Positions 4,699 through 59,285 of a stretch of 64,000 bases of DNA are shown here, piece by piece. Each line of letters begins with the position of its first letter. Within the stretch, counting starts at the first letter, position 1. A program made the translations under genes and the position numbers. Under the pieces are notes generated by a model. It was not told the origin of the DNA, did not search any database, and saw nothing but the letters and a program-made list of their open reading frames with translations. Origin of the DNA: Deltaproteobacteria bacterium (GTDB lineage: Bacteria > Desulfobacterota > SM23-61); contig VGSF01000010.1 in assembly GCA_016875165.1 (NCBI GenBank), positions 1 to 64,000 of the forward strand. The letters run 5' to 3'.

Positions 4699-4752
4699 AA
4701 CAGGAATCCCCGGTCGGATGTTAGAAAAAATATTTTGTTTTTTACTTAAAAT

Positions 4753-4917
4753 TGATGAATTCGTAAAAAGTCTTGTTCCTGTCATTGCGAGGAGTTCCGC
4801 ATTGGCGGGACGACGAAGCAATCTTGTCTTTTCAGGCGCTTATAAAAACGAGATTGCTTAGTCACGCCCATGGCGTGACTCGCAATGACCCTTTCGCGAC
4901 TTTTTACGAGATCATCA
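4753..4917 (+). repeat. Family B repeat, copy B2 (type-2 core)
   Basis: TGATGAATTCGTAAAAAGTC...GACTTTTTACGAGATCATCA; flanks AAAT/AAAG (3/4). Confidence 0.85.
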
Positions 4918-9601: not shown

Positions 9602-9872
9602 GTATTAGTTTAAAGTTTTGAAAAAATGGCGGCAACGCCTCTGCCTCTGTTTGGGACCGGGGACCAGGCCGGAACGCGCCGGAAGCATCGGTTGGGTTTT
9701 CCCTTGTCCTCGAGGATAAAAGCCCGTTTCCTCCGGAGGAGGGGGGGTATCTTCCCCGCTCCATCCACGGAGAAATCAGCGCCTTATGATTCCAAGCGGG
9801 CCGGTCTGGCCCCCGGCCCTGGAATCCCTTGGCCTTGGTGACACACCTTTCTTCAAAGAGCTAAAGTGTTAC
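9602..9872 (+). repeat. Family A repeat, copy A1 (~270 bp, MITE-like)
   Basis: Ends GTATTAGTTTAAAG / CTAAAGTGTTAC; flanked by 8-bp direct repeat AAAAATGG; core matches copies at 17345, 21140, 55581. Confidence 0.88.
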
Positions 9873-10178
9873 AAAAATGGAAGTTTATCCTTTTCATCAT
9901 CAGAATCTTTTTTTCAACATCATAACCGACTATGATCTGACATTTAAAGAGATCCGGGGGATACTGGACTACCTCCTTTCCGTCGAGGCTTTTAAAGAAG
10001 AGGGGGAAGACTGGGGATGTGGAAAATTTTTTGATCTTCGGCTGGGGAATATCCAATACGAGATAGATGTCAATTGTTATGAAGTCGTTATTTACCAGAG
10101 GACGGAACTTACTCCATGACTGGAGGATATTGCGGATAGAGGATGCCTGTTTCATAGCCGGAACCCAAAAGTTAAATT

Positions 10179-14561: not shown

Positions 14562-15410
14562 GTGGGCGGTGGATGGAACAAAATGCGGATGTGGTTTAGG
14601 ACAGAATTAAGCTTGGAAACAGGGGCTTCCTATCTTTCCGGAAGCCCTCTTTCTTTCGCCAAAGGGGAGAACGCTGCTGTCTTCATCGGCCATTCTACTG
14701 TGCTGGTGCGTCTGGACGAGCAAAATTTTCTTACGGATCCTTTCTACTTAAAGCGCCTGTACATTCTGAAAAGACATTTTCCTCCCGGGGTTCCCCTCCA
14801 AGACCTTCCCCCTTTACATTTTATGCTTATCTCCCACGGTCATCTGGATCACATGGATCTGAAAACGCTAAGTCAATTTCCCCGAACTCTGCCGGTTATC
14901 CTGCCGCACAGGCTCGAAGGATATTTAATGGAAATGGGGTTCGAAGATGTTCGGCCCCTTTCCTGGGGGGAAAGCACGCGCATGGGATCCTTAATCGTTC
15001 GCTCCCTCCCTGTAAAGCATTTTCCGGGTCGCTCTCTTTACGAGACCCGGTCCATTCCTCAAAGCTATCTGGTTGAGGGAACGAAGACGATTTTTTTCTG
15101 TGGGGATTCTGGGTTCGCTCCGGAATTTCAAGAAATCGGCAGCCGCTATTCCATCGACCTGGCTTTACTGCCCATAGGCAATTACCGCCCGTCTTCTTTT
15201 AGCAGGTTTCACATGAGTCCGGAGGATGCCTTAAAAGCAATGGAGATGCTCCGGGCAAAACGAATGATACCCATTCATTGGGGAGCGTTCCGTTTGAGCC
15301 TGGAGCCTATGGAAGAACCCCCGCAGCGATTTGGGCAACTCCTTAAAGAGCGGAAGATCAACCCCAAAGCCGTGCTCCTGCCACCTGGGGGAAAAATTCA
15401 AATTTGGTAA
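14562..15410 (+). CDS. MBL-fold metallo-hydrolase (UlaG/NAPE-PLD-like)
   Basis: FIGHSTVLVRL, LISHGHLDHMD, FFCGDSGF, IPIHWGAF; ATG at 14583 is an alternative start. Confidence 0.85.
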   Translation: MGGGWNKMRMWFRTELSLETGASYLSGSPLSFAKGENAAVFIGHSTVLVRLDEQNFLTDPFYLKRLYILKRHFPPGVPLQDLPPLHFMLISHGHLDHMDLKTLSQFPRTLPVILPHRLEGYLMEMGFEDVRPLSWGESTRMGSLIVRSLPVKHFPGRSLYETRSIPQSYLVEGTKTIFFCGDSGFAPEFQEIGSRYSIDLALLPIGNYRPSSFSRFHMSPEDALKAMEMLRAKRMIPIHWGAFRLSLEPMEEPPQRFGQLLKERKINPKAVLLPPGGKIQIW

Positions 15411-15549
15411 CACTTTAGTTCTTTGAAGAAAGGTGTGTCACCAGGGCCAAGGGATTCCAGGGCCCGGGGGCCAGGCCGGCCCGCTTGGAATCATGTGGTG
15501 AGCTTGTCGAACCACAAAAAAATACTTTTGCAAGAGGCTCAACTGATAC
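15407..15549 (-). repeat. Family A repeat, copy A5 (internally deleted derivative)
   Basis: GTAACACTTTAG...CAACTGATAC ends, one half of the long core, perfect 8-bp flanks CAAATTTG/CAAATTTG. Confidence 0.85.
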
Positions 15550-17344: not shown

Positions 17345-17611
17345 GCAACACTTTAGTTATTTGAAGAAAGAAGTGTTACAGGGCCAAGGGATTCCAGGTC
17401 CCGGGGGCCAGACCGGCCCGCTTGGAATCATAAGGCGCTGATTTCTCCGTGGATGGGGAGGGGAAGAAACTCCCCGCCTCCTCTGGAGGAAACGGGCTTT
17501 TATCCTCGAGGACAAGGGGAAACCCAACCGATGCTTCCGGCGCGTTCCGGCCTGGCCCCCGGGCCCAAACAGAGGCGTTGCCGCCATTATTTCAAAACTC
17601 TAAACTGATAC
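17345..17611 (-). repeat. Family A repeat, copy A2
   Basis: GCAACACTTTAG...CTAAACTGATAC; flanks GAAGTATC/AAAGTATC (7/8). Confidence 0.87.
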
Positions 17612-18504: not shown

Positions 18505-18610
18505 GGAAATTACTTGGCCCCTGTCTATTGAAAAAAATTTAAGAATATGGTAGAAAACAATAAATTAGCCACAGAGGACACAGAGATCACAGAGTTTTTA
18601 AAGTCATAAT

Positions 18611-18764
18611 TGATGGTTTCGTAAAAAGTCCTGTTCCGGTCATTGTGAGGAGTTCCGCATTGGCGGGACGACGAAGCAATCTTGTCTTTTCGGGCACTTA
18701 TAAAAACGAGATTGCTTCGCTTTCGCTCGCAATGATCCTTTCGCGACTTTTTACGAGATCATCA
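18611..18764 (+). repeat. Family B repeat, copy B3
   Basis: TGATGGTTTCGTAAAAAGTC ... GACTTTTTACGAGATCATCA; 4-bp flanks TAAT/TAAT; inserted into a family F repeat. Confidence 0.87.
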
Positions 18765-18859
18765 TAATTAAGAAAAAGAAAAGGATGAAAACTGAAAAAA
18801 GGTATTTCCCATACAATTAAATCATTTCAACCATTCCGGCATGAAAAGGAGTTTTAGCC

Positions 18860-21139: not shown

Positions 21140-21407
21140 GTAACACTTTAGCCCCTTGAAAAGAGGTGGGGCGTAAGGTCAGAGGGAATCCATGGTCCGG
21201 GGGCCTGGCTGGCCCGCTTGGAATCATAAGGCGCTGATTTCTTCGCTGGTGGGGCTGGAAAAACGCCCCCCGCCTCCTCCGGCGGAAACGAGCGGGGTTC
21301 TTCGTGGCCAAGCGGAAACCCAGCCGATGCTTCCGGCGCGTTCCACCCAGACCCCCGGACCCCAACAAAGGCAGTCAAACCATTTTTTCAAACAGCTAAA
21401 CTGATAC
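21140..21407 (-). repeat. Family A repeat, copy A3
   Basis: GTAACACTTTAGCCCCTTGAAA...TCAAACAGCTAAACTGATAC; flanks GAAGAGTC/AAAGAGTC (7/8). Confidence 0.87.
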
Positions 21408-22304: not shown

Positions 22305-22462
22305 TGATGATATCGTAAAAAGTCTGAAAATGCCCTTTTCCGTCATTCCGGCCCCGTATCAAGTACGGGGTAAACTCCAGCCGGAATCCAGTATTTTCAA
22401 ATGCTTATAGATACCCTGGACTCCGGTTTTCACCGGAGTGACGACTTTTTACGAGAACATCA
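22305..22462 (+). repeat. Family B repeat, copy B4
   Basis: TGATGATATCGTAAAAAGTC...GACTTTTTACGAGAACATCA; type-1 core (GTCATTCCGG...); flanks ATGA/ATAA (3/4). Confidence 0.82.
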
Positions 22463-22469
22463 ATAATGA

Positions 22470-22617
22470 TGATGAACTCGTAAAAATTCAGAAAAGTTGT
22501 CCCTCCTGCAAAAGCAGTCCGCCTCAGGCGGACAGAACTGCTTGAATTTAGCAGATTCCCGCTTTCGCGGGAATGACAAAAAGAAGGGAATTTTGACTTT
22601 TTACGACGTCATCATCA
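22470..22617 (+). repeat. Family B repeat, copy B5, adjacent to B4
   Basis: TGATGAACTCGTAAAAATTC...GACTTTTTACGACGTCATCATCA; type-1-like core. Confidence 0.8.
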
Positions 22618-24599: not shown

Positions 24600-24735
24600 T
24601 GATGAACTCGTAAAAAGTCTTAAAATACCCCTTTCGGTCATTCCTGGCGGAAGCCGGAATCCAGTATTTTCAAATGCTTATAACTACCCTGGACTCCGGT
24701 TTTCACCGGTGTGACGACTTTTTACGAGGCCATCA
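24600..24735 (+). repeat. Family B repeat, copy B6
   Basis: TGATGAACTCGTAAAAAGTC...GACTTTTTACGAGGCCATCA; type-1 core; no TSD visible. Confidence 0.82.
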
Positions 24736-24979
24736 ACTTTGAATCCACATTAAAATGCAGTCTACTGAATGGAAGAAGGTTAGTCAACTATAAAAACTTT
24801 ATACTTATAGGTTAGCTCTGTGTGATATAAAGTTTTGATCCATTGGCCTCAAACAGGTCTTGACTTTTAAGAGGAGACTTCCTACTATCAAATTACATGC
24901 ACTGTTATTCACCTTCCCAAAGGGGGGGTGCAGAACCCTGTAGGATTTTTAGGCCCACGAAAAGAGGAGGAATAAGGCT

Positions 24980-25579: not shown

Positions 25580-25747
25580 GTAACTCTTTAGTTTTTTGAA
25601 ACCATCCCGAACAGGGAGATTTTTAAGGGCGTCATTCCGCGAAAGCAGTCCGCCTCAGGCGGGCAGGATTTTTTCTAACGGGTTCTGGATTCCCGTTTTC
25701 ACGGTAATGACCAAACGTATACTTTTTTCAAAGGGCTAAAGTGATAC
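25580..25747 (+). repeat. Family A-ended repeat, copy A6 (type-1-like core)
   Basis: GTAACTCTTTAGTTTTTTGAAA...TTTCAAAGGGCTAAAGTGATAC; flanks GAAATTTT/GAAAAATT (6/8). Confidence 0.8.
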
Positions 25748-39693: not shown

Positions 39694-40506
39694 GTGGATC
39701 CCAGAATGAACTCTTCTCCAGAGTTATCCATTATTGTAGTAAATTTTAACAGTTCGGCGTTCATTTTAAAATGTTTAGCAACGCTGAAAGAAGCCTTCGC
39801 CGGTAAGACCCACGAGGTGATAGTAATCGATAACCATTCCTGGGATGAAAGCTGCTGGTTGATTCGCGAAAAATATCCTCACCTGTTGTTGATCGAAAAT
39901 GATAAAAATTTGGGGTATGCCCGGGCGGTCAATCAGGGATTCAGGAAAGCAAAAGGGAAATATCTTTTGATTCTAAACCCGGATGTTCAGCTATTGTCCG
40001 GCTCAATCGATAAAATGACTTATTTCCTGGAAGGAAATCCTGAGGTAGGACTCCTATTACCTAAACTGATAAACCCAGATGGTTCTCTGCAGTTGTCTTG
40101 TCGCACATTCTACGATTTTTCAACATTCCTTTTTCGGAGAACTCCCTTGGGAAAAATATTTCCCAATCATACAATAATCCGTAGGCATCTCATGATGGAT
40201 TGGGACCACGGGGAAGTGCGTGAGGTCGATTGGGGTCTGGGAGCCTGCATGTTCTTGCGCCGAGAAGCACTAAAAGGAGAAAGAATATTCGACGAGCGTT
40301 TTTTCCTTTACTTTGAGGATGTGGATCTTTGTCTTCGAATGAAACAAGAGGGCTGGAAAGTGGTATATTATCCAGAAGCTGTCATGGTTCATACTCATGT
40401 ACGTCAGAGTGCAGACGGTTTATTCAATTACGCAAAATGGGAGCATTTTAAAAGTTTGATCAAGTTTTATTGCAAACATCGGGGATTTCGTCCCCGAATA
40501 TCTTAA
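39694..40506 (+). CDS. glycosyltransferase family 2 (WbbL/rhamnosyltransferase-like)
   Basis: LSIIVVNFNSSAFILKCLATLKEA, NKNLGYARAVNQGF, YFEDVDLCLRMKQEGWKVVY; ATG at 39706 possible. Confidence 0.88.
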   Translation: MDPRMNSSPELSIIVVNFNSSAFILKCLATLKEAFAGKTHEVIVIDNHSWDESCWLIREKYPHLLLIENDKNLGYARAVNQGFRKAKGKYLLILNPDVQLLSGSIDKMTYFLEGNPEVGLLLPKLINPDGSLQLSCRTFYDFSTFLFRRTPLGKIFPNHTIIRRHLMMDWDHGEVREVDWGLGACMFLRREALKGERIFDERFFLYFEDVDLCLRMKQEGWKVVYYPEAVMVHTHVRQSADGLFNYAKWEHFKSLIKFYCKHRGFRPRIS

Positions 40507-40513
40507 AGAAAAT

Positions 40514-40670
40514 GTAAGAGTTTAGCTCTTTGAAAGAACCTTTTTCTACCATCCCCGCGCAAGCGGGAATCGAGAAAGGGCTTCGGGCGAACATGGATTC
40601 CTGCTTTCGCAGGAATGACAAGCTCATTTGGCCTTATTTTCTAATATTCTTCAAACAGTCAAAGTGATAC
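40514..40670 (+). repeat. Family A-ended repeat, copy A7 (type-1 core)
   Basis: GTAAGAGTTTAGCTCTTTGAAAG...TTCAAACAGTCAAAGTGATAC; perfect 8-bp flanks AAGAAAAT/AAGAAAAT. Confidence 0.87.
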
Positions 40671-55580: not shown

Positions 55581-55848
55581 GTATCGATTTAGCGGTTTGA
55601 AAAAGTGGTTTTACCACCTTTGTTGAGGTCCGGGGGTCTGGGTGGAACGCGCCGGAAGCATCGGCTGGGTTTCTGTTTGGCTACGAAGAACCCCGCTTGT
55701 TTCCGCCGGAGGAGGCGGGGGGCATTTTCCCCGCCCCACCCGCGAAGAAATCAGCGCCTTATGATTCCAAGCGGGCCGCCCAGGCCCCCGGACCATGGAA
55801 TCCCTTGGCTCTTACAACACATCTTTTTTCAAAGAGCTAAAGTGTTAC
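55581..55848 (+). repeat. Family A repeat, copy A4
   Basis: GTATCGATTTAGCGGTTTGAAA...TTTCAAAGAGCTAAAGTGTTAC; perfect 8-bp flanks AAAAATTG/AAAAATTG. Confidence 0.88.
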
Positions 55849-56183: not shown

Positions 56184-56338
56184 TGATGAAATCGTAAAAA
56201 GTCCCGTTTTCGTCATTGCGGGGAGTTCCGCCAATGCGGGACGACGAAGCAACCCCGTATTTTCAAGGACTTATAAAAACGAGATTGCTTCGCTTTCGCT
56301 CGCAATGACTCTTCTGACGACTTTTTACGAAGCCATCA
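56184..56338 (+). repeat. Family B repeat, copy B12 (type-2 core)
   Basis: TGATGAAATCGTAAAAAGTC...GACTTTTTACGAAGCCATCA; flanks ATAG/ATAG. Confidence 0.88.
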
Positions 56339-56356
56339 ATAGTAACTGATCGAAAT

Positions 56357-59120: not shown

Positions 59121-59285
59121 GTAACGCTTTAGCCCTTTGAAAAAAGTCTAGGTTTTGTCATTCCCGTGAAAACGGGAATCCAGAACCCGTTAGAAAAAAT
59201 CCTGCCCGCCTGAGGCGGACTGCTTTCGATGACGCTCTTTAAAATTACCCTGTTCGGGATGGTTTTCAAACAGCTAAAGTGATAC
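59121..59285 (+). repeat. Family A-ended repeat, copy A8
   Basis: GTAACGCTTTAGCCCTTTGAAA...TTTTCAAACAGCTAAAGTGATAC; core is the inverse of A6; no TSD visible. Confidence 0.78.

Follow-up and report, generated by a model that had tools for sequence, protein, structure and literature searches.

A fairly recently active family of probably IS66-derived MITEs and its newly identified autonomous partner with DruA and a single transposase

Short elements in the window and their target sites

The window analyzed in this work (the whole 64,000-nt stretch) contains eight short elements with inverted ends, numbered here in coordinate order and given with their flanking target-site duplications (TSDs):

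Copy 1, 9602..9872, minus strand: MITE of 271 bp, class-1 core, TSD AAAAATGG/AAAAATGG (8/8)
Copy 2, 15407..15549, plus strand: MITE of 143 bp, truncated class-1 core, TSD CAAATTTG/CAAATTTG (8/8)
Copy 3, 17345..17611, plus strand: MITE of 267 bp, class-1 core, TSD GAAGTATC/AAAGTATC (7/8)
Copy 4, 21140..21407, plus strand: MITE of 268 bp, class-1 core, TSD GAAGAGTC/AAAGAGTC (7/8)
Copy 5, 25580..25747, plus strand: MITE of 168 bp, REP-like GTCATTCC hairpin core, TSD GAAATTTT/GAAAAATT (6/8)
Copy 6, 40514..40670, plus strand: MITE of 157 bp, REP-like hairpin core, TSD AAGAAAAT (8/8)
Copy 7, 55581..55848, minus strand: MITE of 268 bp, class-1 core, TSD AAAAATTG (8/8)
Copy 8, 59121..59285, plus strand: MITE of 165 bp, REP-like hairpin core, flanks TCGTATTA/GAGATATA (3/8), no recognizable TSD

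All eight intervals were exact elements with the predicted inverted ends on direct reading, and an independent end scan of the window returned the same eight well-matched inverted pairs, which confirms the original prediction of eight copies sharing these ends. Its TSD totals were also correct (four perfect, two at 7/8, one at 6/8, and one, now read as 3/8, with none); its assignment of duplications to copies was wrong for three, and CAAATTTG, AAGAAAAT, and AAAAATTG, which had been attached to A5, A7, and A4, belong to copies 2, 6, and 7, respectively. The ends of the window elements are asymmetric, with GTAAC at the left and GTATC at the right. The copies at 9602 and 55581 are oriented opposite to the others, so that copy 1 has its right-type end at 9602 and its left-type end (GTAACACTTTAGCTCTTTGAA) at 9872. 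The window copies measure 143–271 bp within a family range of 66–438 bp, and no transposase gene lies inside them. All eight are intergenic. Copy 2 lies in the stop codon of a gene for a metallo-beta-lactamase-fold protein (14562-15410, Pfam PF12706), where the TGA of the empty site has become TGG-TAA at window positions 15405-15410 and the new stop is the TAA of the element's own GTAA end. Copy 6 adjoins the 3' end of a glycosyltransferase gene (39694-40506).

The host genome (5.33 Mb, 234 contigs, 99% complete) was scanned with the end pattern GTAWCASTTTAGCNNTTTGAA, which covers 21 positions and was allowed at most one mismatch. There were 248 forward and 258 reverse matches, and the reversed pattern used as a control gave 0 + 0. 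Because 506 ends were counted, the host genome carries about 250 copies by this pattern count. A TSD of at least 7/8 flanked 28 of 41 sampled own-genome pairs (68%) and a perfect one 19 of the 41, compared with 1.5% and 0% after random re-pairing of the flanks, which is far above the chance level against which the original prediction had proposed to judge the TSD frequency. Of 76 pairs in other genomes, 71% had a TSD of 7/8 or better (0.5% for randomly re-paired flanks), and about half of the pairs at these loci had perfect ones. The TSDs are rich in A+T and weakly and symmetrically favor A at position 2 and T at position 7.

Exchangeable cores and fairly recent movement

Only the ends are constant in these elements, and at least four unrelated hairpin cores lie between them. 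The main class in the own genome (class 1) is ~266–275 bp long with a GC-rich hairpin core, and 26 sampled copies have a median pairwise identity of 80%. The class-1 core is nearly confined to these ends, as one or both of them accompany 32 of 33 full-length matches. The other cores include the REP-like GTCATTCC hairpins of copies 5, 6, and 8, CCCTCCC/GGGAGG hairpins, and a CACAGGCC hairpin; parts of these non-class-1 cores also occur elsewhere in the genome, away from the ends. In an Rfam search of the window, tRNA alone was matched, and the MITE cores match no known RNA family. The 66-bp elements of one MAG (QMMV01 and a neighboring locus) consist of little beyond the two ends, and their TSDs are still perfect, which suggests that two ends suffice for an element to move. 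Their relatives of 142–144 bp are the same element plus one hairpin. Comparison of the two size groups (L112, L148, and L183 versus L120 and L151) places this hairpin, present or absent, at the same point and suggests that its gain or loss is precise. Beginning at 66 bp, such elements offer an IS66-type transposase a natural series of minimal substrates.

Segments of the window were aligned with G002, which belongs to the same genus and is mostly 93–97% identical over these segments. Empty sites were present in G002 for copies 2 (15407), 7 (55581), and 4 (21140), as the original prediction had expected of a close relative. The joined flanks of copies 2 and 7, each with one 8-bp target, aligned to G002 without gaps over 400 bp at 96.8 and 97.5%, respectively. 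At the copy 2 junction, the target occurs once and unchanged (an exact empty site); at the copy 7 junction it occurs once with one substitution, and the target of the copy 4 empty site likewise has one substitution. Since a same-genus relative has empty sites for these three copies, the window elements have really moved, and fairly recently. In one or both of the more distant genomes G001 and G003, the sites of copies 1 to 4 seem unoccupied, at an identity of 71–77% and in an approximate comparison; in G001 the flanks of copy 1 are continuous with no insert (77% identical, approximate junction). The copy 5 site is occupied in G002 too, and this is therefore an older insertion. The G002 matches at copies 6 and 8 do not span the site.

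Some further repeats were observed in the window. The 13-bp palindrome CCGCCTNAGGCGG occurs at positions 22519, 25650, and 59206 (three occurrences versus 0.01 expected), and two of these lie inside MITE cores. A similar palindrome forms a short insert in class-1 cores at six loci (L021, L025, L026, L027, L028, and L029), as if such a tiny palindrome were itself spreading. Dispersed repeats starting GCCACAGAGGACACAGAGATCACAGAG lie at 10173, 18561, 27545, and 30393. Hairpin repeats of a second family have TGATG..TCGTAAAAAGTC / GACTTTTTACGA..CATCA ends and REP-like cores:

Second hairpin family, window copies: 4738-4859, 18568-18818, 22379-22463, 24652-24736, and 56184-56341

The last of these copies is absent from G002, and the second family is thus probably mobile; the flanks of that copy (ATAG/ATAG) suggest a 4-bp duplication.

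An autonomous element with DruA and one IS66 transposase

Most unpaired ends in relatives had a degenerate partner, and 30 remained as candidate long elements. A transposon-type gene stood beside only one of these 30, L126 (Syntrophobacterales GWC2_56_13), in which a DruA-family gene (PF14236) begins just inside the end and runs off the contig. The L126 DruA protein was searched in 396 genomes of the phylum, which led to the single-contig genome G163 and its locus L217; the L217 transposase was searched in turn and reached L318 and the copies in genome G143. Two of the elements are complete:

L217:2891-5251, in G163, same phylum as the host: autonomous element of 2361 bp, DruA homologue and one IS66 transposase
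L318:1471-3882, in a Planctomycetota MAG: autonomous element of 2412 bp, DruA and IS66 transposase

The L217 element has GTATGAGTTTAGCTCTTTGAAAAT ends and a perfect 8-bp TSD, TTCACTGA, on both sides; both terminal inverted repeats (TIRs) of L318 are GTAACACTTTAGTTCTTTGAAAAATT, with the perfect 8-bp TSD GACTCTTT. Only DruA and the transposase lie between the TIRs, and neither element has TnpA or TnpB. The L217 DruA matches PF14236 with E=3e-36, and its transposase matches PF03050 with E=1.5e-35 and the NCBIfam IS66 equivalog NF033517 at 242.9 bits (cut-off 180). The L318 DruA is 61% identical to the L126 protein, and the L318 transposase is 63% identical to that of L217. The Planctomycetota genome of L318 also carries a MITE (L140:4478-4618, TSD TATAATTT), and Candidatus Brocadia pituitae has a decayed copy of the autonomous element (L321). 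In G163, the autonomous element is nested in another IS66-like element (L217:2851-6936), which has ends GTAACTATTCAGCG and its own IS66 transposase.

In G143 (with the contigs of G396, and taken from identical contigs to be the genome behind L087, Deltaproteobacteria CROMO_BS_46_3), the autonomous element is multi-copy and breaks the assembly. There are at least a dozen broken copies in G143/G396, with 13 transposase 3' ends listed in all. Six fetched contig ends of G143 carry the left end GTAACACTTTAGCTCTTTGAAAAAAG with the start of DruA, four carry the right end GTATCACTTTAGCTCTTTGAAAAAAG with the transposase C-terminus, and one left and one right flank share the 8-bp TSD GAATTTAT. With GTAAC at the left and GTATC at the right, these ends share the asymmetry seen in the window copies, and the 26 bp at the left are identical to the class-1 MITE consensus of the window genome at 26/26 positions. 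The autonomous TIRs are ~26 bp long and start with GTAAC at the G143 left ends and in L318 and with GTATC or GTATG elsewhere. As the window copies have TIRs and TSDs, are short, non-coding, and numerous in their genome, and share their ends with an autonomous transposon, they have the features of MITEs.

No IS66 transposase of this subgroup was found in the 99% complete own genome or in its closest relative, G002; the nearest ones lie in different genomes, within the phylum or outside it. The own-genome IS66 match on contig C231 (the only PF03050 match there) is a degenerate fragment that lacks these TIRs. The twenty shortest contigs of the own genome, the kind of contig on which collapsed IS copies are often found, showed no good TIR. 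We infer that the source transposon was lost from, or is missing from, the assembly of the window's genome. The original prediction that the elements are non-autonomous and owe their movement to an IS66-like transposase outside the window, to be checked by a search for such a transposase flanked by these TIRs, is thus supported by the complete elements in L217 and L318. It is amended in two respects, as the source was undetected in the own genome assembly and the autonomous element is of a two-gene type, DruA plus transposase, without TnpA/TnpB.

DruA-family genes are frequent neighbors of transposases. Among 19 DruA loci fetched from the phylum, the ORF that follows downstream is, in the majority of the readable ones, an IS66-type transposase (whole or in part), and three loci have an IS1182/IS5-like transposase in that position; DruA-family proteins of this phylum are therefore often insertion-sequence genes. 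Such PF14236 genes were seen in or beside IS66 and IS1182/IS5-like elements at L186/L285 (G001:C10), L185/L235 (G007:C315), and L217–L232, and G001 has a tnpA-tnpB-DruA-tnpC array. The DruA loci L185, L186, and L218–L232 were rejected as partners, being IS66- or IS1182/IS5-like of other groups and mostly without the family ends. The L217 DruA homologue matches PADLOC DruA1 weakly (E=1.2e-4) and is accompanied inside the TIRs by the transposase alone, which does not make up a Druantia system. When such proteins are labeled automatically as parts of the antiphage Druantia system, the name may mislead. DruA would either help transposition or be cargo. It is a tentative and rather doubtful proposal that DruA takes the place of TnpA/TnpB as a functional accessory factor in this IS66 lineage and lets the transposase act on any two 26-bp ends, whatever DNA separates them. 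If true, this role would explain the exchangeable hairpin cores, the 66-bp minimal elements, and the spread over two phyla, and would suggest that the Druantia defense protein DruA was recruited from a transposon.

Probable movement in trans and comparison with known systems

We hypothesize, with high confidence, that the MITEs are moved in trans by the IS66 transposase of an element with the same ends, of the DruA plus single-transposase type. An autonomous element in which a DruA-family gene is followed by a single IS66 transposase would supply the enzyme in trans. This IS66-family DDE transposase would recognize both ends and insert the MITE at staggered cuts in A+T-rich intergenic DNA, and the repair of these cuts would leave the 8-bp duplication. 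The cut-and-repair biochemistry is that generally known for IS66/DDE transposases. Judged by end identity, end asymmetry, and TSD length, a transposase of the L217/L318 type probably acts on the window MITEs, and the source is regarded as identified because the GTAAC/GTATC asymmetry, the left 26 bp, and the TSD length of the window copies match the G143 autonomous element. It speaks against this that a transposase of the subgroup was found neither in the own genome nor in G002 and that, in their right ends, the window MITEs deviate from known IS elements at one position or more.

The similarity of the ends could also reflect shared ancestry only, with a different co-resident transposase mobilizing the MITEs, for example a classical IS66 of the tnpA-tnpB-DruA-tnpC kind. 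The array in G001 fits this idea, as does the fragment on contig C231, since classical IS66 is the only IS66 type in the own genome. However, the family TIR was not found at L009, L186, or L285. The single-transposase element, in contrast, does have the ends of the MITEs, with identical left/right asymmetry and a left end that agrees at 26/26 positions, so we consider a different enzyme quite improbable. Still smaller is the probability that the elements of the window are relics unable to move, retained for a role as bidirectional terminators or as structured RNA. Their intergenic position in 8/8 cases, the strong predicted hairpin of copy 4 (21140-21407, z = -2.86), and the modest class-1 identity would agree with relics, but the insertion differences between relatives 95–97% identical and the many perfect TSDs of the sampled pairs speak against them. 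Terminator activity could be a side effect. The hairpin cores, some of which resemble REP-like sequences elsewhere in the genome, recall REP/BIME-like palindromes whose spread would be due to recombination or a RAYT (IS200/Y1-type) enzyme rather than to DDE transposition. Y1 enzymes are not known to make TSDs, and the 8-bp TSDs of most copies together with the empty sites holding one target contradict this origin, to which we give almost no credence. The interpretation as an IS66-derived MITE family, fairly recently active and with a newly identified autonomous partner of the DruA plus single-transposase type, holds.

Within the host's family, the ends are present in 8/8 available genomes. Across 85,462 species genomes scanned, the matches listed include numerous deltaproteobacterial MAGs as well as Planctomycetota, Candidatus Brocadia among them, and the same ends thus span two phyla. 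A large repeat family of environmental Desulfobacterota-type bacteria and Planctomycetota without a visible source is thereby tied to a specific transposase, and DruA-family proteins, known as antiphage components, are placed inside insertion sequences. In the literature searched, the MITE kind itself is known; nothing was found there on this family, on how widely it occurs, on its exchangeable cores, or on the link to DruA, nor was there a paper joining IS66 with DruA/DUF4338.

Chunjie, a bacterial MITE of Geobacter uraniireducens (reviewed in PMC10969869), is similar, by its description in the review, in being short, of variable size, and mostly intergenic, with TIRs and direct repeats in a deltaproteobacterial host. 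Compared with that description, the present family differs in ends that span two phyla, cores that are unrelated hairpins, and a size down to 66 bp. The upstream protein of the autonomous element shares PF14236 (DUF4338) with Druantia DruA, but no further Druantia gene lies inside the TIRs and DruA stands next to a transposase. The tIS66 elements, which are IS66 elements with passenger genes (PMC12888890), likewise combine an IS66 transposase with a non-transposase gene inside the TIRs; in the present element, however, the extra gene is of the DruA family and precedes the transposase, and TnpA/TnpB are absent. According to PMC11946415, the IRs of IS66 elements are 20–30 bp long and start with GTAAGCG, and the DRs have 8 bp; the present ends start with GTAAC, GTATC, or GTATG followed by CTTTAGC-type sequence, and none with GTAAGCG. 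Unlike the classical three-gene IS66, L217 lacks the TnpA/TnpB accessory ORFs, and because only DruA and the transposase lie between its TIRs it is filed under the single-transposase type. ISBst12-type elements are likewise not known to carry TnpA/TnpB. The present element resembles the ISBst12-like members of IS66 in its single IS66 transposase (NCBIfam equivalog, Pfam PF03050/PF13005), its 8-bp TSD, and TIRs of 20–30 bp beginning GTA(A), and differs from them in the DruA-family gene upstream of the transposase.
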